From Xanthomonas cissicola (GTDB lineage: Bacteria > Pseudomonadota > Gammaproteobacteria > Xanthomonadales > Xanthomonadaceae): a DNA stretch of 64,000 nucleotides. Below the pieces are notes generated by a model that saw nothing but the letters and a program-made list of their open reading frames with translations, was not told the DNA's origin and ran no database searches. Below, piece after piece: positions 397 through 28,488 of this stretch (the stretch's first letter is position 1; each line of letters opens with the position of its first letter). The stretch spans positions 62,001 to 126,000 of the forward strand of contig NZ_VZPL01000005.1 in NCBI RefSeq assembly GCF_008801575.1. The letters are read 5' to 3'. The translations under genes and the position numbers were made by a program.

Positions 397-995
397 TCCG
401 CAAACAGCGCACGCGCGGCTTTACTTTGATCGAATTGTTGGTGGCCTTGGCGATATTCGCGTTGGTGGCCGCAGCTGCGGTGGCGGTGATGCGGCAGAGC
501 ATCGATCAGCGCGATGCCGTGCGCGCGCGACTGCAGCAGATTCGCGACTTTCAATTGGCCCATGGCCTGCTGCGCAGCGACCTGCAGCAGGCCGCGGTGC
601 GCCGTACCCGCAACAGCGAGGGCAGCGCCGCACGCAGCGCCTTTGTTGCGAGTGCGTCCGGGACGTACGGGCCCTTGTTCGGGTTTGTGCGACGTGGCTG
701 GAGCAATCCGGACCAGGCGCCGCGTGCGTCGCTGCAATACGTGGAATATCGCATCGTGGATGAGCGGCTGGAGCGCAGCGCACGCTCTGCGCTCGACGGC
801 GGGGCAGCTGGCACGCCGCAAGTGTTGTTGCGCGGCGTACGTTCGGCGTCGGTGGCATTCCATTACCGGGCGCAATGGAGCGATGGCTGGAGCGGTGGGC
901 TTGAAGCGTTGCCGGATGCAGTCGCGCTGGAGCTGGACCTGGAGCACTGGGGGCGCGTACGCCAACTGTTCCTGTTGCCGGAAGGGCGCACGTGA
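393..995 (+). CDS. xcsJ: Type II secretion minor pseudopilin XcsJ (GspJ)
   Basis: This 200-residue protein has a classic prepilin signal: RTRGFTLIELL, with cleavage after Gly9 and Glu14 at +5, then one N-terminal helix. GspJ forms the pseudopilus tip complex with GspI and GspK. I placed the start at ATG 393, which overlaps the gspI stop as ATGA. The frame stays open upstream to 276, but that stretch overlaps gspI and carries no signal. The stop lies next to the gspK start. Confidence 0.9.
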   Translation: MIRKQRTRGFTLIELLVALAIFALVAAAAVAVMRQSIDQRDAVRARLQQIRDFQLAHGLLRSDLQQAAVRRTRNSEGSAARSAFVASASGTYGPLFGFVRRGWSNPDQAPRASLQYVEYRIVDERLERSARSALDGGAAGTPQVLLRGVRSASVAFHYRAQWSDGWSGGLEALPDAVALELDLEHWGRVRQLFLLPEGRT

Positions 996-4701: not shown

Positions 4702-4731
4702 TTGACACGATCTTTTAGAGACCATAAGAAT
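4702..4731 (+). promoter_or_regulatory. Possible sigma-70 promoter for the first TonB receptor
   Basis: A perfect TTGACA (4702-4707) is followed after 17 bp by TAAGAAT, a weak -10 match. An AATTGGTACT motif, shared with the nagQ upstream region, follows at 4743. The start codon is 262 bp downstream of the -10 element, so the leader would be long. Confidence 0.3.
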
Positions 4732-4992
4732 CAACTCCACTGAATTGGTACTTTCCAGTCAGGGCCGTTGATCAGCAATGGCATGCGTGCCCGTCCTGGG
4801 ACGGACGCGGCATCGGCACCCACGGGGGGGCTTGCGGGGTGCTCGCAGACAACAGATCGCAGGCGGTTCCGGACATCCGGAACTGGTGACCTGTGCGCGC
4901 GTGGTTGGGTTGCCAGCGCCGGGATCTGTCATCGCTGATCGATCGGAACGCCAGTCGCGTTGTCGTCCAGCCATTCCACTTCAGGATTTCTC

Positions 4993-7701
4993 ATGTCGCC
5001 TCTCCCGCGTGCCTCGCTGCGTTGTTGTTCGCCCTCATCGCTGTCCCTTGCCATTGCGCTGTCGCTGCTTGCCTGCGGCGCCAACGCGCAGACACAGGAC
5101 GCATCGGCGGCGGCATCGGCGCAGATCTCCCAACTCGATGCCATCAAGGTCACCAGCTCGTACCAGAAGAGCCTGATCACCGCGATGGACAACAAGCGCG
5201 ACGACGTGCGCATGACCGACGGCATCTCTGCGCAGGACATCGGCAAGTTTCCTGCCGAAAACATCGCCGAGGCGATCCAGCGCATTCCCGGTGTGCAGAT
5301 TTCCACTATCAACGGGCGCGGTTCCACCATCAGCGTGCGTGGCCTGGGGCCGCAGTATTCGGCCACCACCATCAACGGCCAGGTGATCAAAAGCGCCGAT
5401 TTCACCGATGGCTTCCGCTACGACATCATCCAGCCAGAAGTAGCCGCCGGCATCGAGGTGATCAAATCGCCATCGGCGGACATGGACGCCGGTGGCCTGT
5501 CGGGCACGGTCAACATCAACACCACCAAACCCCTGGACTACCAGCAGACCAAGCTGCTGTTCTCAGCCAAAACGCAGTACTCCGAGTTTGCCGGTGGTTC
5601 GCCAACGCCCAAGGGCGTGCTGACCTATATCGACCAGTTCAAGTTCGGTGGCGGCGATCTTGGCGTGTTTCTCAGCGCCGGCTATCAGAAGCTCAAGGAT
5701 CGCGCCGATTATCTGTGGATCGACCGTTGGTACACGCAGGCCACCGACGCCGGCACGTTGTATATCCCACGCCGTCCGCGCTATCGCTCGATCGAGCGCG
5801 AGACCACGCGCAAGATGTTCAATGGCGGGCTGCAATGGAAGCCTAGCGAACAGCTGGAGATGAACCTCACTGCGCTGTATTCGCAGGACAGGACCGCCAA
5901 CGACATGAACCAGCTGGTGTACTCGTTCGAGCGCAGTCCGCTGACAGTGCTGCAGACCAACGGGCTGACCGCCACACAGGTGTCGGCGTCGGATTACTGG
6001 CTGGAAAATAATCACCAGATCGAACAGCACAATCTGTCCACTCAGTTGCTCACCTACGACTTCAAGTGGAAGGGCGATGCCTGGACGCTGAGTGGCGCGG
6101 CCAATTACACCCAGGGCAAGACCGACGAGAACGAGCGCGCCGCGATCCTGGGACGGATTCCCTCGGCAACGCTGCTGGATACCTCCAATCCCGACGCGAT
6201 CTCGCTGACCACCGATGCCGATGCCAATGACGCCAGTGCGTGGAACAAGACCAATCTGGTGCGCAGCGAATACCCCAACGGTTCCATCCAATCGCTCAGC
6301 AACAAGGAATGGTCGCTGCAACTGGATGCCGAACGGTATCTTGAACTGGGCGCGTTGAACGCGGTGCGCTTCGGTGCCAAATACCGTCGCGAAACCTTCG
6401 ATCGCGATGTGCGCCGGCGCGACTTCCTGTATCTGCTCAGGACCGGTGCGGTGTCCGGCTTCGACATGTTCCCGGAGCTGTCCGCAGCCAGCAGCACGGT
6501 CAGCAACTTCCTTGACGGACAACTCGCCTCGCAGGACAGCTGGGTCACCCCGGACGTGGCGGCTTATGCGCGCTCGCTGGCGGCCGCGGGCATCACCGTG
6601 CCGGTGCTGTTTGCACCGCAGAGCAGCTACAGCATCGAGAACGACATTTCTTCGGCGTATGCGATGGCGCGCATCGACACCGACATCGGCAGCATGCGTC
6701 TGCGCGGCAATGTCGGCATGCGCTACGAAAATACCAAACGCACCACCGATACCTACCTGACTCAGACGCAAGCCGCCAGCGACGACGCCAATGTCGTGGT
6801 CGGCACCGCTCGCGCGCCCTACGAGTATTCCAACTGGTTGCCCAGCCTGAATCTGGTGCTGGATATGCGCGAAAACTTGTTGCTGCGCTTTGCGGCCGCC
6901 AAGGTCCTGGTGCGGCCGATTCTGGACAGCAACACCGCGATCGCTTCGACGATTTCCACCGGCACCAATACTGGCGGCACCACCACCTATGTCGTCGCCC
7001 AGGGCCAGACCGATCTGAAGGCATTGACCGCTGACCAAGCCGACCTGAGCCTGGAGTGGTATTACGGCAACGGCGGCGCGCTGACCGTGGCCGGATTCTG
7101 GAAAAACATCAAGAACGGCACCTTCAATAGCATCGTTTGCCCGGCCGCCTTTAACGGTACCGTGCTCTCCAGCAATGCAGCCGGCGATTGTGTGAGTAGT
7201 AACGGCGATATCTACGAGATCACCGCCACCACCAATGATCCGAGCAAGGTAAAGATTCGCGGTTACGAGCTGGGCTGGACGCAATCGCTGGATGCCTGGT
7301 TGCCGATCGATGGTTTCGGGTTCAACACCAATTTCACCCGGGTGATTCCGCAGCGCGATACCGATTTCAAGATCCGCAACCTGTCAGAACAGACCTGGAA
7401 CGCGACCGCGTACTGGGAGAGCGCGCACTACTCGGCACGCGTGTCGCTCAATCATCGCAGCGAGTACGAACAGGACAGCAGCGACAGCTTCTTCGCGCGC
7501 GAAGGCCACATCATGAAGGCACGCACGCAGCTGGATGCAGTGCTTGGCTACCAGGTCAACGACAAGCTGAGTTTCCAGCTGGGCGGCCTGAATCTCACCA
7601 ACCGAAAGGAAGAAGCGTACAAGGACATCCCCAGCCGCTGGCAGATGACCGGCGTCACTGGTCGAAGCTACTACCTGTCGATGCAGTGGGACATGCTTTG
7701 A
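4993..7701 (+). CDS. TonB-dependent outer membrane receptor
   Basis: This protein of about 902 residues has a signal peptide (ending near ANAQ), a TonB-box-like segment LDAIKVTSS, a plug domain (SAQDIGKFPAENIAEAIQRI, then GRGSTISVRGLG) and a long beta-barrel rich in aromatic strands. It would import a ligand across the outer membrane using TonB energy. I chose ATG 4993 because AGGA sits six bases upstream and a normal signal peptide follows. The frame extends to ATG 4960, which would add a polar tail. Its place beside glycosidase and nag genes marks it as a carbohydrate (CUT-type) receptor for a GlcNAc-containing glycan, which is inference. Confidence 0.9.
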   Translation: MSPLPRASLRCCSPSSLSLAIALSLLACGANAQTQDASAAASAQISQLDAIKVTSSYQKSLITAMDNKRDDVRMTDGISAQDIGKFPAENIAEAIQRIPGVQISTINGRGSTISVRGLGPQYSATTINGQVIKSADFTDGFRYDIIQPEVAAGIEVIKSPSADMDAGGLSGTVNINTTKPLDYQQTKLLFSAKTQYSEFAGGSPTPKGVLTYIDQFKFGGGDLGVFLSAGYQKLKDRADYLWIDRWYTQATDAGTLYIPRRPRYRSIERETTRKMFNGGLQWKPSEQLEMNLTALYSQDRTANDMNQLVYSFERSPLTVLQTNGLTATQVSASDYWLENNHQIEQHNLSTQLLTYDFKWKGDAWTLSGAANYTQGKTDENERAAILGRIPSATLLDTSNPDAISLTTDADANDASAWNKTNLVRSEYPNGSIQSLSNKEWSLQLDAERYLELGALNAVRFGAKYRRETFDRDVRRRDFLYLLRTGAVSGFDMFPELSAASSTVSNFLDGQLASQDSWVTPDVAAYARSLAAAGITVPVLFAPQSSYSIENDISSAYAMARIDTDIGSMRLRGNVGMRYENTKRTTDTYLTQTQAASDDANVVVGTARAPYEYSNWLPSLNLVLDMRENLLLRFAAAKVLVRPILDSNTAIASTISTGTNTGGTTTYVVAQGQTDLKALTADQADLSLEWYYGNGGALTVAGFWKNIKNGTFNSIVCPAAFNGTVLSSNAAGDCVSSNGDIYEITATTNDPSKVKIRGYELGWTQSLDAWLPIDGFGFNTNFTRVIPQRDTDFKIRNLSEQTWNATAYWESAHYSARVSLNHRSEYEQDSSDSFFAREGHIMKARTQLDAVLGYQVNDKLSFQLGGLNLTNRKEEAYKDIPSRWQMTGVTGRSYYLSMQWDML

Positions 7702-7854: not shown

Positions 7855-10749
7855 ATGCGCAGGCGTGAGTTCCTAGCCGGCAGCGTCTGCGCCTCATCGC
7901 TGCTTAGCGCGCCTGCGCTGGTCTCTGGCGCGGCAGCCGCAGGCACCAGACGTGTCGGTACCAGCGCCAAGCCGCGTCCCAGGCCACAGGGCTCCGCGAC
8001 AGATGCCGGCGGCCAATGGCTGGATCTGGACGATGGGTGGCGCTTCCATGCCGGCGATGTGCCATTTCCGCGCCTGCTGGGGCAGGACGAGACGTACGCC
8101 AATGGCAAGGCGGGCCGGGCCTGGGGCGCAGCGGCGCCGGAGTTCGACGATACCGGTTGGCGGCAGCTGCAAGTGCCGCACGATTTTGTATTGGAGCAAC
8201 CGGTGCGCGCCGACGCCAACGTCGCGCAAGGCTATCGCCCGCGCGGTATCGCCTGGTACCGGCGCACGTTTCGGCTGGAAGATGCAGTGCGCGGCCAGGC
8301 GGTGGAACTGCGTCTGGACGGTGTCGCCAGCCATGCCACGGTGTGGGTCAACGGCATGCTGATGGCGCGCAGTTGGAGCGGCTACAACGGGCTGGTGATC
8401 GACATCACGCCCGTCGCACGTTATGGCAATGCATTGAACTGCATCGCCATCCGCGTCGATGCCGAGGCCATGGATGGGTGGTGGTACGAAGGCGGCGGCA
8501 TCTACCGACACACCTGGCTGGTGCTGCGCGCGCCCCTGCATATCGCCGGCGATGGCCTGGCAGCCGTGCCGCGGGAAGGCCCAGACGATGTTTGGCAGGT
8601 GCCGGTGCAGTTGGACCTTGTCAACAGCGGTGAACAGCCCGCTGATGCGTGGGTCGAGGTCGTCTTGCGCGACACGCATGGCGCTGTCGTGGCGCATGGC
8701 GAGACACAACGACGCGTCGCCGCATTCGGCACGGCACAGGCGGCGCTCAGCATCGCAGTGCCGCAGCCGCAGCGCTGGAGCGTGGACACCCCCGTGCTGT
8801 ATCGCCTGCAAGCCGAAGTGCGCAGCGCGGATGGCCGCAGCGACCGTGCCGCATGCGAGGTCGGTTTTCGTAGCCTGCGCTTCGACGCCGATCACGGGTT
8901 TTTTCTCAATGGGCGTCCGCTCAAGATCATGGGCGTCTGCCTGCATCAGGACCATGCTGGCGTCGGCGTGGCGTTGCCCGATGCGCTGCATGTGTTTCGT
9001 CTGCAGCGGCTGAAATCGATTGGCTGCAACGCCATCCGTCTGCATCACGCAGTGGCGCCGGAACTGCTGCAGGCCTGCGACCGTCTCGGCATGTTGGTGA
9101 TGGCCGAGAACCGCTTGTTCAATCCTGCACCCGACTATGTGGCGTTGCTGCGCAACATGGTGCGGCGCCAGCGCAATCATCCCAGCGTGTTTCTGTGGTC
9201 GCTGCTCAACGAAGAGCCGCTGCAAGGCACCGCCACCGGTTACGCGATCACGGCGCGCGCCGCCAGCGCGGTGCGGGCGCTCGACGACACGCGCCCAATC
9301 ACCGCCGGCATGAACGACGGCATGTTCGCCACCGGCGGCGCGGCCGATGTGGTGGACGTGCTCGGTTTCAACTATCGGCAGTACAACTACGACCGCGTGC
9401 ATGCAGCGCGTCCGCGCACGCCGATGCTGTCCAGCGAAGACACCAGTGCGTTTCAGACGCGTGGTGCGTGGTTCACCGATCTGGATGCGCACGTGGTGGC
9501 CGAAGACGACAGCCTGGCCGCGGACTGGGGCAATACCCATCGCCGCGCCTGGCAGCTGATTGTCGAACGCCCGTTCGTCGCCGGCAGTTTCGTGTGGACC
9601 GGCTTCGATTATCGCGGGGAACCCACGCCGTTCGAATGGCCATCGGTGGGGTCGTTCTTCGGCATCATGGACCAATGCGGATTTGCCAAGGGCGCCTATT
9701 GGCTGCGTCGCGCCTTATGGATCGACGATGCGCCGGTACTGCATCTGTTGCCACACTGGAACTGGCCCGGCCGCGAAGGTCAGCCGATCAAGGTCATGGC
9801 GTTCTGCAATGCCGAGCAGGTGGAGTTGTGGCTCAACGGCCGCTCGCTCGTGAAACAAGCGGTGGATCGTGCGCAATCGAATCAGTGGCAAGTGGACTAC
9901 GCGCCGGGCATGCTCGAAGCGGTGGCCTGGCGTGGGGGACACGAAGTGGCGCGCACGCGCGTCGAAACCACCGGCGCCCCGGTCGCGCTCAAACTCATCC
10001 CCGACCGCAGCGAACTACACGGCGATGGCCGCGATGCGCAACCGGTGACGTTGGAAGCGGTGGACGCGCAGGGGCGCCACGTGCCCGATTGCAATGCACT
10101 GCTGACGCTGCAGATCAGCGGCGGCCGGCTGTTGGGTGTCGGCAATGGCGACCCGAATTCGCATGCAGCGGATCAAAGCACGCAGGTGGCGTTGTTCAAC
10201 GGGCTGGCGCAGGCAATCGTGCAAGCCGGGAGCGGTGCGGGCGTGTTGCGCCTGCAGGCAAGTAGCCCCGGATTGCGCGATGCAGTGCTTGACATCGGCC
10301 GCACGTCGGCGCCGCTGCCGGCATCGGTGCCGATCGCGGCGCCAGTGATGGTGGTCGAAAGCTGGCGCCACACCGCTGCATTCGCGCAGCCGCCCGCACC
10401 GGATCTCCCGCGCCGTCCTAACGACAACAACAGCTGGAGCAACACGTTGCCAGGCACCTTGGAAAGCGCCCCCGAACGTGCCGGCTATGTGTTGTATCGC
10501 AGTCAATTCACACCGTGGCAGGGCATGCAAACCCGCGGCGGCATACTCGACCTGGGCCGCCTCAGCGGGCCGGCGCAGGTATTTCTGGACGGCCGCGCGG
10601 TCGCCCAGGCAGCGGCCGGAACACCGATCACCGTGGCGCTTGCACCCGCGGCCGGCGAGCGCACCCTGGCGGTGATTCTGCATGTCGCTGCCGATCAACC
10701 GTTTGGATTCCACGACGTCGTCACCGTGCATTATCGGAACCTGCCATGA
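7855..10749 (+). CDS. Glycoside hydrolase family 2, probable beta-galactosidase, Tat-exported
   Basis: This 964-residue protein begins MRRREFLAG, a twin-arginine signal, so it is probably exported folded. The GH2 order is visible: a sugar-binding sandwich (about 50-225), an immunoglobulin-like domain, a TIM barrel with acid/base Glu453 in LLNEEP and probable nucleophile Glu528 in MLSSEDTS, then a DUF4982-like segment and further beta domains. GH2 covers beta-galactosidase, beta-mannosidase and beta-glucuronidase; galactosidase is my best guess. The stop overlaps the start of the GH89 gene (ATGA), so the two are translationally coupled and likely act on the same glycan. Confidence 0.85.
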   Translation: MRRREFLAGSVCASSLLSAPALVSGAAAAGTRRVGTSAKPRPRPQGSATDAGGQWLDLDDGWRFHAGDVPFPRLLGQDETYANGKAGRAWGAAAPEFDDTGWRQLQVPHDFVLEQPVRADANVAQGYRPRGIAWYRRTFRLEDAVRGQAVELRLDGVASHATVWVNGMLMARSWSGYNGLVIDITPVARYGNALNCIAIRVDAEAMDGWWYEGGGIYRHTWLVLRAPLHIAGDGLAAVPREGPDDVWQVPVQLDLVNSGEQPADAWVEVVLRDTHGAVVAHGETQRRVAAFGTAQAALSIAVPQPQRWSVDTPVLYRLQAEVRSADGRSDRAACEVGFRSLRFDADHGFFLNGRPLKIMGVCLHQDHAGVGVALPDALHVFRLQRLKSIGCNAIRLHHAVAPELLQACDRLGMLVMAENRLFNPAPDYVALLRNMVRRQRNHPSVFLWSLLNEEPLQGTATGYAITARAASAVRALDDTRPITAGMNDGMFATGGAADVVDVLGFNYRQYNYDRVHAARPRTPMLSSEDTSAFQTRGAWFTDLDAHVVAEDDSLAADWGNTHRRAWQLIVERPFVAGSFVWTGFDYRGEPTPFEWPSVGSFFGIMDQCGFAKGAYWLRRALWIDDAPVLHLLPHWNWPGREGQPIKVMAFCNAEQVELWLNGRSLVKQAVDRAQSNQWQVDYAPGMLEAVAWRGGHEVARTRVETTGAPVALKLIPDRSELHGDGRDAQPVTLEAVDAQGRHVPDCNALLTLQISGGRLLGVGNGDPNSHAADQSTQVALFNGLAQAIVQAGSGAGVLRLQASSPGLRDAVLDIGRTSAPLPASVPIAAPVMVVESWRHTAAFAQPPAPDLPRRPNDNNSWSNTLPGTLESAPERAGYVLYRSQFTPWQGMQTRGGILDLGRLSGPAQVFLDGRAVAQAAAGTPITVALAPAAGERTLAVILHVAADQPFGFHDVVTVHYRNLP

Positions 10750-13142
10750 CCTTTTCACTGTTTTCCTCATCGTCGCCTGCGCGCCTGTTCGCCATGGTGC
10801 TGGGTGCGTTGCTCGCCACTCCCGTCCCCGTGCTGGCGGCACCGCCCGCGCAGGCAGTCGTGCAACGCCTGATCGGCGCGCGTGCCGCCCAGTTCGACAT
10901 GACCGTCGCACCGCGTGGCGATGGTGCAGACTGGTACCGCATCGACGCCGGCGGCGACACGGTGCGCATTGCCGGCTCCTCGCAAGTAGCCTTGGCGCGT
11001 GGCGCCTATGCGTATCTCGGTCAAGCAGGTGCGGCCTCGATGAGTTGGGAGGGCGACCGCGTGGCGCTGCCAGCGCAATGGCCGGCCTACCGCAGTGGTC
11101 AAGTGCGCACGCCATTTGCCCACCGCGCCTATCTCAATACCTGCACCTACGGCTACACCACGCCGTTCTGGGATTGGCCGCGCTGGCAGCGCGAGATCGA
11201 CTGGATGGCCTTGCATGGCATCGACATGCCGCTGGCGATGGAAGGCCAGGAAGCGATCTGGCAAGCGTTGTGGCGCGAGTTCGATGTCGGCGATGACGCG
11301 CTGGCGGAGTATTTTTCCGGCCCGGCGTTCACGCCGTGGCAGCGCATGGGCAATATCGAAGGCTATCGCGCACCGCTGCCGCAACACTGGATCGACAGCA
11401 AACGCGTGCTGCAGAAGCAGATCCTGACGCGCATGCGCGAGTTGGGCATGCAGCCGGTGCTGCCCGCATTTGCCGGCTACGTGCCCAGGGCGTTCGCGCA
11501 GGCCCATCCGCATGCGCGCATCTATCGCATGCGCGCCTGGGAAGGCTTTCACGAGACCTATTGGCTGGATCCGCGCGATCCGCTGTTTGCCAAGCTCGCG
11601 CGGCGCTTCCTTGAGCTGTACGCCCAGACCTACGGCGCAGGCGAGTTCTACCTGGCCGATGCCTTCAACGAAATGCTGCCACCCGTGGCCGACGATGGCA
11701 GCGACGTGGCCGCCGCCAGGTACGGCGACAGCATCGCCAACTCCGATGCTGCGCGGGCAAAAGCGGTACCGCCAGCGCAACGCGATGCACGCCTGGCCGA
11801 GTACGGGCAGGCGTTGTATCGCTCCATCGCGCAGGTGAATCCGAAGGCCACCTGGGTGATGCAGGGCTGGCTGTTCGGTGCCGACCGCCAGTTCTGGCAA
11901 GCGCAGGCGATCGCTGCGTTTCTCGGCAAGGTGCCCGACGCGCGCTTGATGGTGCTTGACATCGGCAACGACCGCTATCCCGGTACCTGGAAGGCATCGC
12001 AGGCCTTCGACAACAAGCAGTGGATCTACGGCTACGTGCACAACTACGGCGCTAGCAACCCGTTGTACGGCGATTTCGCGTTCTATCGGCGCGATCTGCA
12101 AGCCTTGCTGGCCGATCCGGACAAACGCAATCTGCGCGGCTTCGGCGTGTTTCCGGAAGGCCTGCACAGCAACTCGGTGATCTACGAGTATCTCTACGCG
12201 CTGGCCTGGGAAGGCCCGCAACAATCGTGGTCGCAGTGGCTCACGCACTATCTGCGCGCGCGCTACGGCCGCAGCGATGCTGCATTACTGAGCGCATGGT
12301 CTGATCTGGAAGCAGGCATCTACCAGACCCGTTACTGGTCGCCACGCTGGTGGAACAAGCGTGCCGGTGCCTACCTGCTGTTCAAGCGGCCGACTGCCGA
12401 CATCGTCGATTTCGACGATCGTCCTGGCGACCCGCAACGCCTGCGCCGCGCCATCGATGCGTTGCTGCGGCAGGCCAACCGTTATGCAGATGCGCCGCTG
12501 TATCGCTACGATTTGATCGAAGACGCACGCCACTACCTGAGCCTGCAGGCCGACCGTCAATTGCAGGCAGTGGTGCAGGCCTATAATGCCGGCGATTTCG
12601 CGCGCGGCGATGCGCAGCTGGCGCGCACCACGCAACTGGTGCGGGGACTGGATGCGCTGGTTGGCGGTCAACACGAAACCTTGGCCGACTGGACCGGCCA
12701 GGCCGCCGCTGCGGCCGGCCACGATGCCGGATTGCGGCGCGCCTATGTCGGCAATGCGCGAGCGCAGGTCAGTGTCTGGGGCGGCGACGGCCACCTTGCT
12801 GATTACGCGTCCAAGGCGTGGCAGGGCATGTACGCAGACTTCTATCTGCAGCGTTGGACGCGCTTTCTCAGCGCGTATCGTGCTGCACGCAAGGCCGGCA
12901 CGCCGTTCGATGCGGTGGCCGTGGATCACCAGCTTGCAACATGGGAACGCCAATGGTCCGCGCAGGACGAGATGTCGAAGCGTCAGCCGCCACGTGAGCC
13001 ACTGAGCTTGCTGCACACCTTGCTGGCACAGGTAGATGCGCACGATCCAAGGCAACGCGCTTCGCAGGATCGCGGGCCAGACGCGCGGCAAGAAGGTGCA
13101 TCCGGTGGCGTTCACAGCGCCACGCAAGGGGGCGCTCAATGA
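10746..13142 (+). CDS. Alpha-N-acetylglucosaminidase (GH89, NAGLU-like)
   Basis: This 798-residue protein has a Sec signal peptide (about residues 1-31, ending VLAAPP) and all the landmarks of the NAGLU family: NTCTYGYTTPFWDWPRWQREIDWMA-type entry, catalytic Glu309 in DAFNEMLPP, WVMQGWLF, and catalytic Glu471 in FPEGLHSNSVIYE. GH89 enzymes release terminal alpha-linked GlcNAc. Between the two glutamates there is an extra 25-30 residues compared with the human enzyme as I recall it. ATG 10746 overlaps the GH2 stop and was preferred over upstream in-frame codons. The stop overlaps the next small ORF. Confidence 0.9.
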   Translation: MTFSLFSSSSPARLFAMVLGALLATPVPVLAAPPAQAVVQRLIGARAAQFDMTVAPRGDGADWYRIDAGGDTVRIAGSSQVALARGAYAYLGQAGAASMSWEGDRVALPAQWPAYRSGQVRTPFAHRAYLNTCTYGYTTPFWDWPRWQREIDWMALHGIDMPLAMEGQEAIWQALWREFDVGDDALAEYFSGPAFTPWQRMGNIEGYRAPLPQHWIDSKRVLQKQILTRMRELGMQPVLPAFAGYVPRAFAQAHPHARIYRMRAWEGFHETYWLDPRDPLFAKLARRFLELYAQTYGAGEFYLADAFNEMLPPVADDGSDVAAARYGDSIANSDAARAKAVPPAQRDARLAEYGQALYRSIAQVNPKATWVMQGWLFGADRQFWQAQAIAAFLGKVPDARLMVLDIGNDRYPGTWKASQAFDNKQWIYGYVHNYGASNPLYGDFAFYRRDLQALLADPDKRNLRGFGVFPEGLHSNSVIYEYLYALAWEGPQQSWSQWLTHYLRARYGRSDAALLSAWSDLEAGIYQTRYWSPRWWNKRAGAYLLFKRPTADIVDFDDRPGDPQRLRRAIDALLRQANRYADAPLYRYDLIEDARHYLSLQADRQLQAVVQAYNAGDFARGDAQLARTTQLVRGLDALVGGQHETLADWTGQAAAAAGHDAGLRRAYVGNARAQVSVWGGDGHLADYASKAWQGMYADFYLQRWTRFLSAYRAARKAGTPFDAVAVDHQLATWERQWSAQDEMSKRQPPREPLSLLHTLLAQVDAHDPRQRASQDRGPDARQEGASGGVHSATQGGAQ

Positions 13143-13261
13143 ACGAATCCGTGTTGCGCATGGCGTTCATGCCGGAGCGCAGTTGCGTCGATGCAAGAGC
13201 CCAGACCACCAGATGTGCATGTCGCATCCACCTCTATGACGTGGGCGAGGGCGTGCAATGA
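13139..13261 (+). CDS. Small 40-codon ORF coupling GH89 and nagX
   Basis: An ATG overlaps the GH89 stop (ATGA, 13139-13142). A 40-codon frame then runs to a TGA at 13259-13261 that itself overlaps the nagX start (ATGA, 13258-13261). The peptide starts MNESVLRMAF, ends YDVGEGVQ, and contains three Cys. It has no signal or membrane segment. The double overlap suggests real translation, either as a peptide or as a ribosome relay to nagX. It could also be a relic of a longer gene. Confidence 0.4.
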   Translation: MNESVLRMAFMPERSCVDARAQTTRCACRIHLYDVGEGVQ

Positions 13262-14424
13262 GCGCACACACGCCCGCGGCTGCCACTCCCGCTGCAGCCG
13301 CACCGTCAAAGCGCGAACGCTTCCTCTCACTGGATGTGTTCCGCGGCCTGACCATCTTCCTGATGATTCTGGTCAACACCGCAGGGCCGGGCGCGCAGGC
13401 GTACGCGCAGCTGACCCACGCGGCTTGGTTCGGCTTCACGCTGGCCGATCTGGTGTTTCCTTCGTTCCTGTTCGCGGTTGGGAGCGCGATGAGTTTTGCG
13501 CTGGCAACCAACACGCCGCATCTGCAGTTCCTCGGCCGTGTGAGCAGACGCGCCGCGCTGATCCTGCTATGCGGTGTGCTGATGTACTGGTTTCCTTTTT
13601 TCCATCTGCAGCCAGATGGTGGATGGGCGTTCACGACGGTCGATCAACTTCGCCTGACCGGCGTATTGCAACGGATCGGCCTGTGCTATCTGGCGGCGGC
13701 ATTGCTGGTGCGCTATCTGCCACCGCGCGGCATCGCGCCTGTCTGCTTAGCACTGCTGTTGGGCTATTGGGCGTTGTTGTACGCCTTCTGCCAACCTGGC
13801 GCGGAATTGAGCAAGACCGGCAATGCCGGCACTCGCCTGGATCTGTGGCTGTACGGGCGTGATCATCTGTACCGCAAGGATGGCGGCTTCGATCCTGAAG
13901 GCTTGCTCGGCACGCTGTCGGCCACGGTCAATGTGCTGGCCGGTTATCTGTGCGGGCGCTTCCTGCAGCGACATGGCAAGACCATTGCCAGCACGCGCAG
14001 CTTGTTGTTGGCGGGCGCAGGTCTGGTGCTGCTGGCGCTGCTCTGGGCACCGGCCTGGCCGTTGTCGAAGAAGCTCTGGAGCGGCTCGTTCGTCGCCTGC
14101 ACGGTGGGCCTGGATCTGCTGGCGCTGGGTGCACTGGTATACCTGCTGGAATTGCGCGGCTGGACCGGCGGCAGCGGTTTCTTCACCGTTCTGGGGCGCA
14201 ACCCGCTGGCGATCTACCTGTTCTCCGAATTGTTCGTGGTGGTGTTGCGGCTGATCCCGGCCGGAAGCTCCGGGCTGGACCTGTACGCCTGGGCCGGCAT
14301 CGGCGTGTTCCAGACCATTACGCCAGGACCACTCGGCTCGCTGCTGTGCGCGCTGAGCTACACGCTGATGTGCTGCGCGGTGGGTTGGTGGATGGATCGG
14401 CGGCGCTGGTACCTGCGGCTGTGA
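13258..14424 (+). CDS. nagX: NagX, heparan-alpha-glucosaminide N-acetyltransferase-like membrane protein
   Basis: This 388-residue protein has about ten membrane helices. The N-terminal signature RFLSLDVFRGLTIFLMILVN, followed by HAAWFGFTLADLVFP, closely resembles lysosomal HGSNAT. His54 aligns with the HGSNAT acetyl-carrying histidine as I recall it. HGSNAT moves acetyl from acetyl-CoA across a membrane onto terminal alpha-glucosamine, making the substrate of NAGLU, which is exactly the adjacent gene. The COG4299 family is called NagX in bacterial GlcNAc regulons. The start is ATGA-coupled to the preceding small ORF. Acetylation in the periplasm is inferred from the family. Confidence 0.82.
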   Translation: MSAHTPAAATPAAAAPSKRERFLSLDVFRGLTIFLMILVNTAGPGAQAYAQLTHAAWFGFTLADLVFPSFLFAVGSAMSFALATNTPHLQFLGRVSRRAALILLCGVLMYWFPFFHLQPDGGWAFTTVDQLRLTGVLQRIGLCYLAAALLVRYLPPRGIAPVCLALLLGYWALLYAFCQPGAELSKTGNAGTRLDLWLYGRDHLYRKDGGFDPEGLLGTLSATVNVLAGYLCGRFLQRHGKTIASTRSLLLAGAGLVLLALLWAPAWPLSKKLWSGSFVACTVGLDLLALGALVYLLELRGWTGGSGFFTVLGRNPLAIYLFSELFVVVLRLIPAGSSGLDLYAWAGIGVFQTITPGPLGSLLCALSYTLMCCAVGWWMDRRRWYLRL

Positions 14425-14429
14425 TCGCA

Positions 14430-14580
14430 TCGCCCATCCGGCGACGGGCCAGGGTGCAACGCACTGACCAGCTCGGCCATGGCTGCACGATGCCCACCCG
14501 TGGCAGCGGCCAATGTGGCGCGGCCAGGCAATTCACCCGATTGCGTGCGTCGAGGTCGGCCGCGGCCTGATGCGCGTTGC
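14430..14580 (-). pseudogene. Possible ankyrin-repeat gene relic
   Basis: On the minus strand one frame reads AADLDARNRVN and, after a frame change, another reads ATLAAATGGHRAAMAELVSA. Together these resemble one ankyrin repeat unit. There is no start codon or intact frame. The stretch lies between nagX and the nagQ operator. The match is by eye and short. Confidence 0.25.
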
Positions 14581-14583
14581 GCA

Positions 14584-14603
14584 AATTGGTACTATATTGG
14601 ACC
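14584..14603. promoter_or_regulatory. Candidate NagQ (GntR-family) operator/promoter
   Basis: AATTGGTACTATATTGGACC lies 33-52 bases before the nagQ start. It has TTGGTAC and TTGGACC as near-direct repeats and GGT...ACC as inverted ends around an AT-rich centre, and TACTAT/TATATT could serve as a -10 element. AATTGGTACT recurs at 4743. GntR/HutC regulators commonly autoregulate, so NagQ is the expected ligand. Confidence 0.45.
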
Positions 14604-14635
14604 TAACGAATCCCCGTCGGTCCGGAGGACAGGCA

Positions 14636-15403
14636 GTGGTCAAACCGAAAACCAACGCCAGGACGGACGACGACCCCAGGATGGACGCGCTGGCACTGGA
14701 CGCGTCCACGCCGACCCCGCTGTATCTGCAACTGGCCGCCAAGCTTACCGACGCCATCCGTGGCGGGCAGTGGAAGGCCGGCGAGGCGCTGCCGGCCGAG
14801 CGCCAGCTGTGCGAGCGGCTGCAGATCTCGCGGGTGACCCTGCGCCAGGCGGTGGATGTGCTGGTCGAACAAGGCCTGGTCTCGCGCCGGCAGGGCGCCG
14901 GCACCTTCGTCACCACGCAGATCCAGCATCAGCTCAGCGGCCTGACCAGTTTCAGCGAGACGCTGCGCATCAAGGGCTATGAGCCGGGCACGCGCTGGCT
15001 GGAGCGGCGGCTGCGCCCGGCGCATGGCGAAGAGATCCTGCGCCTGGGCCTGTCGCCGGATGCCGCGGTGGCCTCGCTGACGCGGCTGCGCAGTGCCGAC
15101 GACCGGGTCATGGCCTACGAGCACGCGGTGTTGCCGCAACGCATCGTCGCCGACCCGCAGCAGATCGGCGATTCGCTCTACAGCTATCTGGATGCGCAGG
15201 GCACGCCGGTGGTGCGTGCCCTGCAGTACTTCCGCGCCATCAATCTGCCCGCGCGGCTGGCCGAACACCTGCGCATGAAGACCGGCGAGGCGATTTTGCA
15301 TGTGGTGCGCGTGGGCTATGCCCGCGATGGCAGCGCGATCGAATTGACCGACACCTATTGCCACAACGACTTCTACGATTTCGTCGCCGAACTGCGCCGC
15401 TGA
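14636..15403 (+). CDS. nagQ: GntR/HutC-family transcriptional regulator NagQ
   Basis: This 255-residue protein has an N-terminal winged helix (PLYLQLAAKLTDAIRGGQW, then LPAERQLCERLQISRVTLRQAVD) and a UTRA-type effector domain (LTSFSETLRIKGYEP onward). The effector is probably GlcNAc-6-phosphate or a related amino sugar phosphate. I chose GTG 14636 because GGAGG lies seven bases upstream and because an earlier start at 14513 would place the operator inside the gene. It precedes nagP by 43 bp in the same direction. The name follows Xanthomonadales GlcNAc regulons in which a GntR regulator is NagQ. Confidence 0.82.
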   Translation: MVKPKTNARTDDDPRMDALALDASTPTPLYLQLAAKLTDAIRGGQWKAGEALPAERQLCERLQISRVTLRQAVDVLVEQGLVSRRQGAGTFVTTQIQHQLSGLTSFSETLRIKGYEPGTRWLERRLRPAHGEEILRLGLSPDAAVASLTRLRSADDRVMAYEHAVLPQRIVADPQQIGDSLYSYLDAQGTPVVRALQYFRAINLPARLAEHLRMKTGEAILHVVRVGYARDGSAIELTDTYCHNDFYDFVAELRR

Positions 15404-15446: not shown

Positions 15447-16724
15447 ATGACTACCGCCAGGCCCGCAAACCCCGTTGTCTCGATCGCCATCGTCGGCGTG
15501 CTGTTTTTCATCATCGGCTTTTTCACCTGGATCAACGGGCCGCTGATCACCTTCGTGCGGCTGGCGTTCGACCTCAACGAGGTCAACGCATTCCTGGTGC
15601 TGATGGTGTTCTACCTGTCGTACTTCTTTCTGGCCTTGCCCTCGTCGTGGATTCTCAAGCGCACCGGCATGAAGAAAGGCCTGGCGCTGAGCCTGGTGGT
15701 GATGGCCGTGGGCGCAGCAGGCTTCGGCCAGTTCGCCACGCAGCGTTGGTATCCCGGCGCGCTGGGCGGCCTATTCGTCATCGGCAGCGGCCTGGCCTTG
15801 CTGCAGACGGCGATCAACCCGTACATCAGCATTCTCGGGCCGATCGAAAGTGCCGCGCGGCGTATCGCCTTGATGGGCATCTGCAACAAGATTGCCGGCA
15901 TCCTGGCGCCGATCCTGATCGGCTCGCTGGTGCTGCACGGTATCGGCGACCTGTCCGCGCAGGTGGCCAGCGCCGATGCGACGACCAAGGAAACCTTGCT
16001 CACCGCCTTCGCCGCCAAGATTCACGCGCCGTATCTGGTGATGTCCGGCGTCCTGCTGTTGCTGGCCATTGGCGTGCTGTTCTCGCCATTGCCCGAGCTC
16101 AAGCCCTCCGAAGCCAACGCTACGCCGGGCGCGACCGGTGGCGTGCAGAAATCCAGCATCTTCCAGTTCCCGCACCTATGGCTGGGCGTGCTGTGCCTGT
16201 TCGTCTATGTGGGCGTGGAAGTGATGGCCGGCGATGCCATCGGCACCTACGGACACGGCTTCAATCTCCCGTTGGACATCACCAAGATCTTCACCTCCTA
16301 CACGCTGGGCGCGATGTTGCTGGGCTACATCGCCGGCCTGGTATTGATTCCGCGCGTGATCTCGCAGGCGCGTTACCTGAGCGTGTCGGCGGTGCTGGGC
16401 GTGCTGTTCTCGCTCGGTGCCTTGTTCACCCACGGCTACGTGTCGGTGGGCTTCGTCGCCGCGCTCGGCTTTGCCAACGCGATGATGTGGCCGGCGATCT
16501 TTCCGCTGGCCATTCGCGGACTGGGCCGGTTCACCGAAATCGGCTCGGCATTGCTGGTGATGGGCATCGCTGGCGGCGCGATCATTCCGCAGCTGTTCGC
16601 CATCCTCAAGCAGCACTACGACTTCCAGGTCGTGTTCGCTGCACTGATGGTGCCGTGCTATCTGTACATCCTGTTCTATTCGCTGCGCGGTCATCGCGTG
16701 GGCCTGCCGGCCCAGGCCAAGTGA
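15447..16724 (+). CDS. nagP: N-acetylglucosamine MFS permease NagP
   Basis: This 425-residue protein has about twelve membrane helices, beginning VSIAIVGVLFFIIGFFTWINGPLI, the pattern of the FucP/GluP/NagP sugar:proton symporter group. Cytoplasmic loops carry SSWILKRTGMKK. It would move GlcNAc from periplasm to cytoplasm. It heads the nagP-nagR-nagB-II-nagA run. No GlcNAc kinase is encoded in the window, so phosphorylation must occur through a gene elsewhere. Confidence 0.88.
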   Translation: MTTARPANPVVSIAIVGVLFFIIGFFTWINGPLITFVRLAFDLNEVNAFLVLMVFYLSYFFLALPSSWILKRTGMKKGLALSLVVMAVGAAGFGQFATQRWYPGALGGLFVIGSGLALLQTAINPYISILGPIESAARRIALMGICNKIAGILAPILIGSLVLHGIGDLSAQVASADATTKETLLTAFAAKIHAPYLVMSGVLLLLAIGVLFSPLPELKPSEANATPGATGGVQKSSIFQFPHLWLGVLCLFVYVGVEVMAGDAIGTYGHGFNLPLDITKIFTSYTLGAMLLGYIAGLVLIPRVISQARYLSVSAVLGVLFSLGALFTHGYVSVGFVAALGFANAMMWPAIFPLAIRGLGRFTEIGSALLVMGIAGGAIIPQLFAILKQHYDFQVVFAALMVPCYLYILFYSLRGHRVGLPAQAK

Positions 16725-16764
16725 TCGCGGCGGCATGATGCGTTCCGACGGACAAGGTACATCC

Positions 16765-17832
16765 ATGCGCAGGCCCACAATCAAAGATGTCGCCGAGCGC
16801 GCCAAGGTCTCGTTGAAGACCGTGTCGCGGGTGATCAACAACGAGCCATCGGTGATGCAGGCCACGCGTGCACGCGTGCTGCGCGCCATCGCCGATCTCG
16901 ACTACGAACCCGATCCGTCCGCGCGCAATCTGCGCAGCGGCACGCCGTTCGTGATCGGCCTGGTATACGACAACCCCAACCCGTACCACATCATCGGCAT
17001 TCAGAATGGCGTGCTGGCCGCGTGCCGCGAAACCGGCTTCGGCTTGCAGATCCATCCCTGCGATTCCACCTCGCCGTTGCTGGCCGAAGAACTGGCCGAA
17101 TGGGTGCAGCGCTCGCGCCTGGCCGGCGTGGTGTTGACCGCGCCGATGTCCGAGCGCCCGGAATTGCTGGCCGGTCTGGCCGCGCGCGGCATCAAGAGCG
17201 TGCGCATCATCGCCTCCACCGACGACCCCGGCGATGGCCCGTGCGTGTATATCGACGACCGCGATGCCGCGTATGAAATCACCGAGCACCTGATCCAGCT
17301 CGGCCATCAACGCATCGGCTTCCTGTGGGGCGGCCCGCAGCATCGCTCCAGCGGCGAACGTTACGCCGGCTATGAAGCGGCGTTGAAGGATTACGGCATC
17401 AGCCTGGACAAGCACCTGGTGATTCCCGGCGACTACACGTTCGACGATGGCTTCCGTGGCGCACGCCGGCTGTTGTCGTTGCGCGAGCCGCCCACCGCCA
17501 TCTTCGGCAGCAACGACGAGATCGCTGCAGGCGTGCTGGCCGCGGCCAAGTCCACCGGCATGAACGTGCCGTATCAATTGTCGATCGCCGGGTTCGAAGA
17601 CAGCCCGTTCTCGCGCCATTCGTGGCCGGCACTGACCACTGCCAAGCAGGCCACCGACGACATCGCGCGGCATGCCGCACGCTTGTTGATCAGCCAGCTG
17701 CGCAGCGATGCCTACGACGACCAACCGGCGCAATTGCAGAGCCGCGGCTTCGTGCCGCAGTTGGTGGTGCGCGGCTCCACCGCGCCGGCGCCTGCGTCCA
17801 CCGGCAAACCCCTTCCTCCTGAATCTGCCTGA
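16765..17832 (+). CDS. nagR: LacI-family transcriptional repressor NagR
   Basis: This 355-residue protein has the LacI helix-turn-helix TIKDVAERAKVSLKTVSRVI, the hinge YEPDPSARNLRSG, and a periplasmic-binding-protein-like effector domain. I chose ATG 16765, just before the HTH and with AAGG ten bases upstream, over ATG 16735. It lies inside the nag operon and probably controls it and the TonB receptors. CG-centred palindromes upstream of both receptor genes are candidate targets. Confidence 0.88.
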   Translation: MRRPTIKDVAERAKVSLKTVSRVINNEPSVMQATRARVLRAIADLDYEPDPSARNLRSGTPFVIGLVYDNPNPYHIIGIQNGVLAACRETGFGLQIHPCDSTSPLLAEELAEWVQRSRLAGVVLTAPMSERPELLAGLAARGIKSVRIIASTDDPGDGPCVYIDDRDAAYEITEHLIQLGHQRIGFLWGGPQHRSSGERYAGYEAALKDYGISLDKHLVIPGDYTFDDGFRGARRLLSLREPPTAIFGSNDEIAAGVLAAAKSTGMNVPYQLSIAGFEDSPFSRHSWPALTTAKQATDDIARHAARLLISQLRSDAYDDQPAQLQSRGFVPQLVVRGSTAPAPASTGKPLPPESA

Positions 17833-17838: not shown

Positions 17839-18867
17839 ATGAGCCTTCCCTCCGAAACCGAGACCTTGATGTTCCGCGAAGCGGCGCAGACCGCCGATGT
17901 GGTTGCTGCACAGTTCGCGCGTAATGCCGACACCATCGCCGCGCTTGCGCAATCGCTGCGCGAGACGCCGCCGCCGTTCGTGGTGACCTGCGCGCGCGGT
18001 AGCTCCGATCATGCGGCCACCTATGCCAAGTACCTGTTCGAAACCCAGCTCGGCATCGTCACCGCATCTGCGTCGCCGTCGGTGGGCTCGGTCTATGCAG
18101 CGCCGCTGCAACTGCGTGGCGCGCTGTACATCGTGATTTCGCAATCGGGCAAGAGCCCGGATCTGCTGCGCAATGCCGAAGCGGCCAAGGCTGCCGGCGC
18201 GCGCGTGGTCGCGCTGGTCAACGTGGAAGATTCGCCGCTGGCGCAACTGGCCGAGGTGGTGATTCCGCTGGGCGCAGGCCCGGAAAGAAGCGTGGCCGCC
18301 ACCAAGAGTTATCTCGCTTCGCTGGCCGCGGTCCTGCATCTGGGCGCGGTGTGGAAGAACGACCCCGCCTTGCTTGCCGCGCTCGACGCATTGCCGCAGC
18401 AGTTGCGCAGCGCGTGGCAGGCCGATTGGTCCGCGCTCACCGCCGGTCTGGCGCCTGCGCACAATCTGTTCGTGCTCGGCCGCGGCCTGGGCCTGGGCGC
18501 AGCGCAGGAAGCGGCATTGAAGTTCAAGGAAACCTGCGGCTTGCACGCCGAAGCCTACAGCTCGGCCGAGGTCAAGCACGGGCCGATGGCCCTGGTGGGG
18601 CCGGGGTTCCCGGTGCTGGTCTTCGCACAGCCCGACGAAACCGGTGCCGGTACCCGCGCACTGGCCGAAGAATTCCGCGCGCGTGGCGCGCAGGTGTGGC
18701 TGGCCGCGCCCGGTGGCGATTTGCCGCTGGCAGAGGCCGCGCACCCGGCCTGTGCGCCGCTGTTGACCGTGCAGAGCTTCTATCGCGCGATCAATGCATT
18801 GGCATTGCAGCGCGGCAACAATCCCGATCTGCCGCCGCATCTGAACAAGGTCACGGAAACCGTCTGA
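17839..18867 (+). CDS. nagB-II: Glucosamine-6-phosphate deaminase NagB-II (SIS family)
   Basis: This 342-residue protein has two SIS domains and no glutaminase domain. Seen motifs are CARGSSDHAATYAKY, ISQSGKSPDLL, AATKSYLAS and EVKHGPMAL. It would convert glucosamine-6-phosphate to fructose-6-phosphate and ammonia, replacing classical NagB. Its position between nagR and nagA fits that role. An AgaS-like specificity cannot be excluded from sequence alone. It begins six bases after nagR and ends two bases before nagA. Confidence 0.85.
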   Translation: MSLPSETETLMFREAAQTADVVAAQFARNADTIAALAQSLRETPPPFVVTCARGSSDHAATYAKYLFETQLGIVTASASPSVGSVYAAPLQLRGALYIVISQSGKSPDLLRNAEAAKAAGARVVALVNVEDSPLAQLAEVVIPLGAGPERSVAATKSYLASLAAVLHLGAVWKNDPALLAALDALPQQLRSAWQADWSALTAGLAPAHNLFVLGRGLGLGAAQEAALKFKETCGLHAEAYSSAEVKHGPMALVGPGFPVLVFAQPDETGAGTRALAEEFRARGAQVWLAAPGGDLPLAEAAHPACAPLLTVQSFYRAINALALQRGNNPDLPPHLNKVTETV

Positions 18868-18869
18868 TC

Positions 18870-20024
18870 ATGCACGCTCTCACGACTCAGGCACTGTGCA
18901 ATGCACGTGTGCTCACCGACAACGGATTGCAGGACGGCCTGGTCGTGATGCTGGCTGGCACGCAGATCCAGGCGATCGTGCCGGCCGACGATGCGCGCGT
19001 TACGCAGGCCGATACGCGCCTGGACCTGGGTGGCGCCAGCTTGTTGCCGGGCTTTATCGACATCCAGGTCAATGGCGGCGGCGGCGTGTTGTTCAACAAC
19101 GCACGCGACCCCCAGGCACTGGCCACGATCGCCGCCGCGCATCGTCGCTTCGGCACCACCGGCATGCTGCCAACCTTGATCAGCGACACCGCTGAGGTGA
19201 TGGCCGAAGCGATCGATGCCACTCGCCAGGCCATCGCGCAAGGCGTACCCGGCGTGCTCGGCATCCATCTGGAGGGCCCGTACCTGAGTCCTGCGCGCAA
19301 GGGCACGCACGACGCGGACAAGTTCCGCGTACCGGACGCGCACGAGATTGCCGTCGATACCTCATTGGACAATGGCGTCACCTTGATCACGCTCGCACCC
19401 GAGCGCGTTCCGCTGGACGATATCCGTGCCTTCGTTGCCGGCGGCGCGCTCGTGTTCGCCGGCCACACTGCGGCCACCTACGAGCAGGCACGCGATGGCA
19501 TTGCCGCCGGCGTCAGCGGCTTCACGCACGTGTACAACGCGATGTCGCAGCTGGCTGGCCGCGAACCCAATGCGGTGGGCGCGGCACTGGAAGACCCGAC
19601 GATTTGGTGCGGCGTCATCGTCGACGGCGTGCACGTGCATCCGGCCAGCTTGCGTGTGGCGCTCGCGGCCAAGCCACGCGGCAAGTTGCTGCTGGTCACC
19701 GACGCCATGCCGATGGTAGGCAGCGAAAGCGCCAGCTTCGATCTCTACGGCGAAACCATCACCGCCGTGGACGGCGTGGTGCGAAATGCCGATGGTGCAC
19801 TGGCCGGCTCCGCATTGGACATGGCCACCGCCGTGCGCAACAGCGTGCGCTGGCTGGGCGTGGACCTGGCCGAAGCCGCGCGCATGGCTTCTACCTACCC
19901 CGCGCAATGCATTGGCCTGGGCGAACGCCTGGGACGCATCGCCCCCGGCTACCAAGCCGATCTGGTGCTGGTGGATGACGATGTGCAGGTGTTGAGCACG
20001 TGGGTGGCTGGGCAGCGCGACTAA
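18870..20024 (+). CDS. nagA: N-acetylglucosamine-6-phosphate deacetylase NagA
   Basis: This 384-residue amidohydrolase has GFIDIQVNGGGG, metal-binding Glu in GIHLEGPYLSP, His in FAGHTAATY and FTHVYNAM, and the catalytic Asp in LLVTDAMPM. It deacetylates GlcNAc-6-phosphate in the cytoplasm, giving the NagB-II substrate. ATG 18870 is two bases after the nagB-II stop. The frame open upstream to 18351 lies within nagB-II. Confidence 0.93.
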   Translation: MHALTTQALCNARVLTDNGLQDGLVVMLAGTQIQAIVPADDARVTQADTRLDLGGASLLPGFIDIQVNGGGGVLFNNARDPQALATIAAAHRRFGTTGMLPTLISDTAEVMAEAIDATRQAIAQGVPGVLGIHLEGPYLSPARKGTHDADKFRVPDAHEIAVDTSLDNGVTLITLAPERVPLDDIRAFVAGGALVFAGHTAATYEQARDGIAAGVSGFTHVYNAMSQLAGREPNAVGAALEDPTIWCGVIVDGVHVHPASLRVALAAKPRGKLLLVTDAMPMVGSESASFDLYGETITAVDGVVRNADGALAGSALDMATAVRNSVRWLGVDLAEAARMASTYPAQCIGLGERLGRIAPGYQADLVLVDDDVQVLSTWVAGQRD

Positions 20025-26850: not shown

Positions 26851-26975
26851 GGTGTCTCCTGATGCGGTAACGGTGCGGTGGCGATCGAGGCGGATGGCAC
26901 AGACGCGGGCGTGCGCGCGGGAAGCGATCGCGGCGCGTCGCTGCCGCCGCGCCTGCCTGCGCCGGCTCCCGGCCG

Positions 26976-28448: not shown

Positions 28449-28488
28449 GACAAACCTCCTGTGGGACGGTCGCCGCAGCGACGCACCT

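Follow-up and report, generated by a model that had tools for sequence, protein, structure and literature searches.

Organization and conservation of the GH89-NagX cassette

The 64,000-nt stretch of Xanthomonas cissicola DNA analysed here (contig NZ_VZPL01000005.1; hereafter the window, whose positions are used as coordinates) carries a one-strand run of four open reading frames (ORFs) encoding a GH2 glycosidase, a GH89 enzyme, a product of 40 codons and a NagX-like transmembrane acetyltransferase. An earlier note on this DNA had described these ORFs as a coupled chain, and our analysis confirmed the run, with all four ORFs where it had placed them and ATGA read at each of the three junctions; the chain is longer than claimed, however, with a TonB-dependent receptor (TBDR1) encoded upstream and N-acetylglucosamine (GlcNAc) genes downstream (Table 1).

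Genome contigs were scanned with an 11-row GH89 alignment that returned 359 relatives, of which the best 80 were used (19 xanthomonad and 61 other loci, drawn from xanthomonads, Caulobacterales, Sphingomonadales and Alteromonas), with genes called as simple ORF picks. Among these best 80 of 359, a NagX-type gene was found at 79 loci, the remaining locus stopping inside GH89 at a contig edge; it lay no more than 400 nt from GH89 in 77/80 and downstream on the strand of GH89 in 75. A 4-nt stop/start overlap of the two genes was possible at 49 of 79 loci when the nearest ATG, GTG or TTG was taken as the start. In 42 of the same 80 loci GH89 was preceded, at a distance of at most 500 nt, by a gene for a TBDR1-type receptor, and TBDR1 itself is 47% identical to a receptor in Caulobacter vibrioides. 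In genome G063 GH89 stops at a contig edge, and another contig of that genome begins with the tail of a GH89 and then NagX. A family-level sample of 198 genomes held GH89 in 15 and PF07786 proteins in 105, and eight of its ten GH89s from outside the genus had a NagX gene immediately downstream; those of G063 and of the divergent G202 account for the other two. GH89 was present in six of 398 genomes in a phylum-level sample (window counted), where the five other GH89s had NagX adjacent in three cases, in the same cluster in one and none in the case of G433.

Within Xanthomonas, GH89 occurred in 16 of 35 genomes (the window's own counted), and these were also the 16 with NagX (Fisher p 2.5e-10, with the 35 genomes taken as independent, which they are not). 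The window genome has a single GH89, whose nearest named relatives are those of X. vasicola and X. prunicola (92% identity), and a single protein matching the cassette NagX. At the nag locus, 15 of the 34 other genomes had TBDR1, GH2, GH89 and NagX all present and 19 had none of them, the absence of TBDR1 and GH2 being judged at this locus only; nagQPRB was retained there in 34/34, and a NagQ match was found in 35/35 genomes (best match 87–100% identity). This joint presence and absence beside a constant nagQPRB indicated that NagX in Xanthomonas tracks GH89 and not GlcNAc catabolism. Taken together, the 79/80 loci and the same 16/35 Xanthomonas genomes make the coupling of GH89 and NagX, as claimed previously, well supported at the level of gene sequence.

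The small ORF between the two genes was compared in 13 Xanthomonas cassettes (window and 12 others), in all of which it is open (42 codons in 12, 40 in the window) and both of its ATGA junctions are kept, the other two frames being open in 0 and 1 of 13. Despite this open frame, substitutions were nearly even by codon position (705/838/933 in 13 sequences, X. maliensis left out) in comparison to the GH89 control (342/174/2310; 12/13 sequences with anchor), and on this ground a functional small protein was rejected as improbable. Amino-acid identity went down to 31%, and tblastn recognised the small ORF in only 5 of 15 other cassettes. As frame and junctions are kept and the peptide is not, the small ORF can be interpreted as a candidate translational relay, which probably preserves GH89-NagX coupling after an insertion. 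X. maliensis has no small ORF, and its GH89 and NagX genes overlap each other.

Table 1. Genes and putative regulatory elements of the cassette and the adjoining nag locus in the window.
Feature	Position	Strand	Remarks
Candidate cassette promoter TTGACA-N17-TAAGAAT	4702-4731	+	sequence conservation
TTGG...CCA inverted-repeat-like element	4745-4757	+	just downstream of -10
TonB-dependent receptor TBDR1	4960-7701	+	PF00593 115.5 bits, PF07715 60.2 bits
GH2, beta-galactosidase type	7855-10749	+	964 aa; seven Pfam matches
GH89 alpha-N-acetylglucosaminidase, NAGLU-like	10746-13142	+	798 aa; PF05089, PF12972, PF12971
Small ORF	13139-13261	+	40 codons; no Pfam match at E 0.001
NagX/HGSNAT-like transmembrane N-acetyltransferase	13258-14424	+	388 aa; PF07786 35.2 bits (cut-off 22)
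nagQ, GntR/UTRA regulator	14513-15403	+	PF00392, PF07702
nagP-like MFS transporter	15447-16724	+	PF07690; at nag locus in 34/34 other genomes
nagR-like LacI-family regulator	16735-17832	+	at nag locus in 34/34 other genomes
nagB-II-like SIS-domain aminosugar deaminase	17839-18867	+	PF01380; at nag locus in 34/34 other genomes
nagA-like amidohydrolase (GlcNAc-6-P deacetylase)	18870-20024	+	384 aa; PF01979 on longer frame 18351-20024

The true start of TBDR1 is likely later than the start of its listed ORF. Upstream of this gene, the block at 4702-4757 is probably the cassette promoter, its sequence being conserved across the window and nine other aligned Xanthomonas loci, X. maliensis among them, and the TTGG...CCA element may be a putative NagQ or NagR site. 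An operator motif common to the upstream regions of TBDR1 and nagQ/TBDR2 was rejected, both TBDR1 comparisons falling inside the shuffled range; the TBDR2-nagQ upstream comparison gave a best match of 16 against a shuffled maximum of 15. GspK- and GspL-type type II secretion genes (992-3084) border the cassette, and in 15 of the 19 Xanthomonas loci without a cassette genes of these types are found upstream of nagQ, at a distance of about 1.5 kb. A GMC oxidoreductase, an aldehyde dehydrogenase and a BCCT transporter are encoded consecutively at 25180-30468 and are presumably the choline-to-betaine genes betA, betB and betT. Split copies of cassette genes were observed in Xanthomonas sp. LMG 31884 (L171, G023), where the receptor and GH89 are divided over frames, and for NagX in X. 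arboricola pv. guizotiae CFBP 7408 (L170, G004) and in G021; these splits may reflect either decay or sequencing error.

Enzymes encoded by the cassette

GH89 matched the NAGLU N-terminal, TIM-barrel and C-terminal domains with 67.3, 410.7 and 167.6 bits (Pfam cut-offs 28.3, 25.5 and 25), and its best match in the PDB was human NAGLU (4xwh, E 2.4e-103). The glutamates of its FNE and PEG motifs align with human NAGLU, in which E316 and E446 are the catalytic residues; E309 and E471 of GH89 are invariant in the 11 alignment rows. The enzyme is probably exported, as judged by eye, and probably cleaves terminal alpha-GlcNAc.

The Pfam matches of GH2 include the GH2 N-terminal, middle and TIM-barrel domains, DUF4982 and C5, its best PDB matches are the GH2 beta-galactosidases 7cwd, 4ypj and 8q2h, and the glutamates of its NE and SE motifs, presumably the catalytic pair, align with solved beta-galactosidases. 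These results support the previous assignment of GH2 to the beta-galactosidase type, and exo-beta-glucosaminidase was ruled out on the same domains and PDB matches. GH2 is probably galactose-specific, a candidate specificity suggested by nearest solved relatives that are annotated as beta-galactosidases, and a Tat-like RR was noted by eye at its start. In Sphingomonas L213 a 51% identical GH2 adjoins GH89-NagX on the opposite strand, and GH2 of either of the two types searched was found in the available flank of 33/80 loci (best 80 of 359); these differing arrangements suggest that the partnership between GH2 and GH89-NagX arose or persisted in different arrangements.

NagX has as its closest solved relative human HGSNAT (8vkj, E 8.8e-24), with two significant stretches aligning to HGSNAT residues 266-391 and 463-617. 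Functional HGSNAT residues are named in the available text of Zhao et al. 2024 (PMC11199644), where R275 and R345 contact acetyl-CoA, N286 binds its carbonyl, H297 and D307 form a dyad, and R372 and E499 contact glucosamine (GlcN). The equivalents of R275, N286, H297, D307, R345 and R372 are invariant in 79/79 GH89-linked NagX sequences (window and 78 loci), and that of E499 is kept in 78/79, the exception being a frameshifted row; in the window NagX, H54, D64, N40, R132 and E214 correspond to H297, D307, N286, R372 and E499. At the position of the HGSNAT pore residue F310, 64 of the GH89-linked NagX have F and 15 have Y. The HGSNAT likeness proposed earlier thus finds support in the PF07786 match, in 8vkj as closest solved relative and in the kept catalytic residues. 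When aligned to 8vkj, the luminal domain and first transmembrane helix (TM1) of animal HGSNAT are missing from NagX, and the extracellular domain (ECD) and TM1 are described as confined to higher metazoans (PMC11199644).

Window NagX scored 136.5 bits against the NCBIfam NagX equivalog NF046061 (cut-off 480) and 22.3 bits against Pfam DUF5009, slightly under the cut-off of 25. With a hidden Markov model (HMM) built from the GH89-linked kind itself, GH89-linked NagX sequences scored at least 379 bits (apart from two fragments of the frameshifted L170), in comparison to 195–246 bits for 15 other NagX-like proteins. Judged by these scores, GH89-linked NagX is a subfamily separate from other NagX-like proteins.

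Gene neighbourhoods and the candidate source glycan

Neighbours of chosen loci were annotated with Pfam; the family scan covered 75 of 98 unlabelled cluster genes, with the 25 commonest families considered and 46 rarer ones set aside, and GH115 and IolC were searched for in genomes representing 46 of the 61 non-xanthomonad loci. A GH115 alpha-glucuronidase was found in the available flank (up to 10 kb) of 19/80 loci. None of these 19 is xanthomonad; 12 are from Sphingomonas, 3 from Novosphingobium, 2 from Asticcacaulis and 2 from Caulobacter. The 46 genomes contained 79 GH115 matches, and 18 of the 46 carry one in the flank, compared with about 0.8% by chance in a rough reckoning. IolC was present in 12 of the 46. 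Eight of these 12 (three Caulobacter, four Asticcacaulis and one Sphingomonas) had it on the GH89 contig, no more than 16 kb from GH89, and also had a GH115 within 24 kb, as a plain count of distances. The other four showed no such closeness, and in G637 the contig with GH89 differs from that with GH115 and IolC. Members from several clusters scored above NCBIfam cut-offs for iolG, iolC-aldolase, iolD, iolE, iolB and iolA (as MMSDH).

In Caulobacter Root655 a single strand carries iolC-D-E-B-A-GH89-NagX, with some 100 nt between iolA and GH89, and GH115, two GH92, a histidine phosphatase, an ABC transporter and iolG are encoded upstream. GH89, NagX, a histidine phosphatase (His_Phos_2) and GH115 are likewise consecutive on one strand in C. 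vibrioides (L279:7610-14903). GH92 occurred in six of the eight iol-linked clusters and phosphatases (His_Phos_2 or alkaline) in five, and GH43 and GntR/FCD regulators recurred among neighbours. In a tree of 38 GH115s, two well-supported clades held all but one of the 18 linked ones, the last standing as a single row, and 12 of the 20 unlinked ones formed a separate clade. For the two linked GH115s that were searched, the nearest solved structure was BtGH115A (5by3). By gene content, predicted steps for alpha-linked GlcN(Ac), alpha-linked glucuronic acid (GlcA) and inositol stand together in eight alphaproteobacterial genomes and not in Xanthomonas.

A GH115 and a myo-inositol operon beside GH89-NagX match GlcN(Ac)-GlcA-inositol, the headgroup of plant glycosyl inositol phosphorylceramides (GIPCs). 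In the available text of PMC8099651 the tobacco GIPC is given as GlcNAc-alpha1,4-GlcA-alpha1,2-Ins-P-Cer (Ins-P-Cer, inositol phosphorylceramide or IPC), with PSL1 carrying GlcNAc and PSL2 carrying GlcN, and longer forms carry Man, Gal and Ara. According to PMC9113257 (as excerpted), plants probably attach GlcNAc first and deacetylate it afterwards, and an account of 102 barley grain GIPCs lists 25 with hexosamine-hexuronic acid (HexN-HexA-IPC) and 35 with Hex-HexN-HexA-IPC, compared with 13 and 12 for the acetylated counterparts (PMC12201980). For these unacetylated forms, a consumer relying on a GH89 specific for GlcNAc would need an acetyltransferase.

We favour, with moderate confidence, a reading of the cassette as a periplasmic module on a GlcNAc-utilisation locus that would acetylate and then cut its substrate, the likeliest source being the plant GIPC headgroup, (Gal-)GlcN(Ac)-alpha1,4-GlcA-alpha1,2-inositol. 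TBDR1 would import a small glycan with an alpha-linked hexosamine occurring as GlcN and GlcNAc, and GH2 would take off a beta-linked cap, probably galactose. NagX would then transfer acetyl from cytoplasmic acetyl-CoA to the exposed alpha-GlcN, GH89 would release the acetylated sugar as GlcNAc, and NagP would admit this to the cell for use by the nag enzymes. The order of beta-galactose removal, acetylation and alpha-GlcNAc removal is plausible by analogy, the acetylate-then-cut sequence being inferred from the human pathway. This reading builds on gene linkage, co-occurrence and conserved residues as observed, whereas localisation, enzyme activities, step order and substrate are predicted. 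It is a serious if tentative possibility that GH89-NagX forms the heart of a bacterial system consuming the sugar heads of plant GIPCs, of which Xanthomonas would have a shortened, outer-sugar version. In such a system one cluster of Caulobacter, Asticcacaulis and Sphingomonas may digest the whole headgroup, taking off mannose or galactose, acetylating and cutting glucosamine, cutting GlcA off inositol with a dedicated GH115, removing phosphate, and importing and burning the inositol; the linked GH115 is predicted to act on GlcA-inositol.

The GIPC target suggested by the earlier note, a guess when made, gains some support: GH115, inositol catabolism, GH92 and phosphatases in relatives speak for it, but Xanthomonas has neither an iolB above cut-off nor a linked GH115. 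The iolB model was above its cut-off in 0/35 Xanthomonas genomes (27–33 bits in 32; cut-off 205 bits), so that the genus would harvest outer sugars only, and we read its cassette, from gene content, as a shortened version that would take galactose and GlcNAc and leave GlcA-inositol. GH115 was found in 8/35 Xanthomonas genomes, two of the eight in pieces (6/16 with the cassette and 2/19 without; Fisher p 0.11), either on a contig that does not carry the nag locus or at a long distance from this locus; as a cassette partner in Xanthomonas it was ruled out for want of linkage. With no iolB above cut-off and GH115 unlinked, the GIPC reading for the window by itself depends on its homology with the longer clusters.

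These Xanthomonas results weigh against the GIPC reading, as do several others. The two Xanthomonas GH115 copies in the tree belong to the unlinked clade, and 8 of the 20 unlinked GH115s share the linked side of the tree. GH115 was not found in the available flank of 42/61 non-xanthomonad loci, and 34/46 genomes are without IolC. The two divergent GH89s of G202 and G433 (28–29% identity, 28% for G202) have no NagX nearby, in a range below 50% identity that was hardly sampled, distant GH89s (e.g. of Bacteroidota) lying outside the best 80 of 359. NagX is also without the luminal domain that is thought to serve HGSNAT on long chains. To these can be added the NagX genes without GH89 and the published free-glucosamine proposal, both of which bear on the first alternative below.

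Alternatively, NagX may acetylate free periplasmic glucosamine only and GH89 may separately clip alpha-GlcNAc, the two being neighbours since both feed the GlcNAc pathway; we consider this unlikely. Transacetylation of free periplasmic glucosamine by NagX is what Price et al. 2022 proposed, with fitness data in five bacteria (PMC9007349, available text), and this work probably bears on the GH89-linked subfamily: of the two PF07786 proteins in C. vibrioides DSM 9893, the one encoded next to GH89 is alone in matching the NagX HMM, and the C. crescentus fitness result therefore probably concerns the same gene. G142 and G213, moreover, have a GH89-type NagX beside nagQPRB and no GH89 found in the genome (NagX-containing stretches of the GH89-less genomes, L150:8330-10096 and L151:8024-9340), with GH20 and a glucokinase-type gene near NagX in G142, and thus NagX is not strictly tied to GH89. 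However, 19 of the 35 Xanthomonas genomes hold nagQPRB without a NagX match, NagX being present only where GH89 is, and coupling to GH89 at 79/80 loci is tighter than a shared product demands.

Other inositol- or uronic acid-containing glycans can also be considered as targets. The glycan of glycosylphosphatidylinositol (GPI) anchors (Man-Man-Man-GlcN-inositol), for example on GPI-anchored arabinogalactan proteins, would have its mannose trimmed by GH92, its GlcN taken by NagX and GH89, and the rest by the phosphatase and iol genes. This is quite improbable in our estimation, although GH92 (9 of 75 scanned neighbour proteins), phosphatases and iol genes do occur in the clusters, GPI glucosamine is unacetylated, and the linked GH115s searched are nearest to BtGH115A, which we take to be active on arabinogalactan. 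GPI is without GlcA, yet GH115 is present in 8/8 iol-linked clusters and also near GH89 where iol genes are absent, and GPI glucosamine is capped by alpha-mannose, unlike the beta-galactoside cap suggested by GH2. Heparan sulphate, heparosan or a bacterial capsule glycan with alpha-GlcN(Ac)-1,4-GlcA would offer an alpha-hexosamine-uronic acid unit similar to that of the human NAGLU-HGSNAT pathway, and NAGLU is the closest solved structure to GH89; we nevertheless regard such a target as very improbable: sulfatases, lyases and GH88 are all missing from the 25 commonest families found in the 75 neighbour proteins, and the inositol genes and alpha-glucuronidases are left unexplained. The gene context in some relatives supports the GIPC headgroup over the rivals weighed.

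Comparison with known systems

No bacterial GIPC-utilisation locus, microbial route for the use of GIPC heads or GH89-NagX linkage appeared in titles and abstract openings among the open-licence papers listed. GIPCs are described as major plant plasma-membrane sphingolipids implicated in salt sensing and recognised by microbial toxins (PMC8158104, as excerpted), and the structures of their headgroups are called largely unknown (PMC8099651). If our reading holds, the cassette and its relatives would provide enzymes to strip and map GIPC headgroups, and GH89-NagX would be a bacterial counterpart of HGSNAT-NAGLU and a model for the Sanfilippo enzymes. The HGSNAT and NAGLU steps are those that fail in human Sanfilippo disease.

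The known system that resembles GH89-NagX in both of its enzymes is this human lysosomal step, which likewise joins a NAGLU-type GH89 with a transmembrane acetyltransferase having the same H297-D307, N286, R372 and E499, as far as these residues are described. The bacterial pair differs in its presumed location at the inner membrane and periplasm, in being encoded by adjacent and probably co-translated genes, in a NagX without luminal domain, in having no sulfatase among the commonest neighbour families and in a glycan that is likely another one. NagX of chitin and glucosamine operons (Price et al. 2022; NF046061) belongs to the same superfamily and GlcNAc-locus setting, and the acetylation of glucosamine across the membrane that is proposed for it would apply to window NagX as well; the window protein is nonetheless under the equivalog cut-off and in the separate GH89-linked subfamily. 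The GH115 xylan alpha-1,2-glucuronidases (4c90, 7pug, 7pxq and AxyAgu115A 6nps) are of the same family as the enzymes beside GH89-NagX, but the two linked ones searched are closer to BtGH115A.

A GlcNAc locus of the carbohydrate utilisation with TonB-dependent transporter (CUT) type, with NagR and NagQ regulons, was reportedly described in Xanthomonas by Boulanger et al. in 2014. That locus is reported to have nagQ, nagP, nagR, nagB-II, nagA and a TonB-dependent receptor in common with the window, which differs from it by the extra upstream TBDR1-GH2-GH89-NagX segment carried by 16/35 Xanthomonas genomes.

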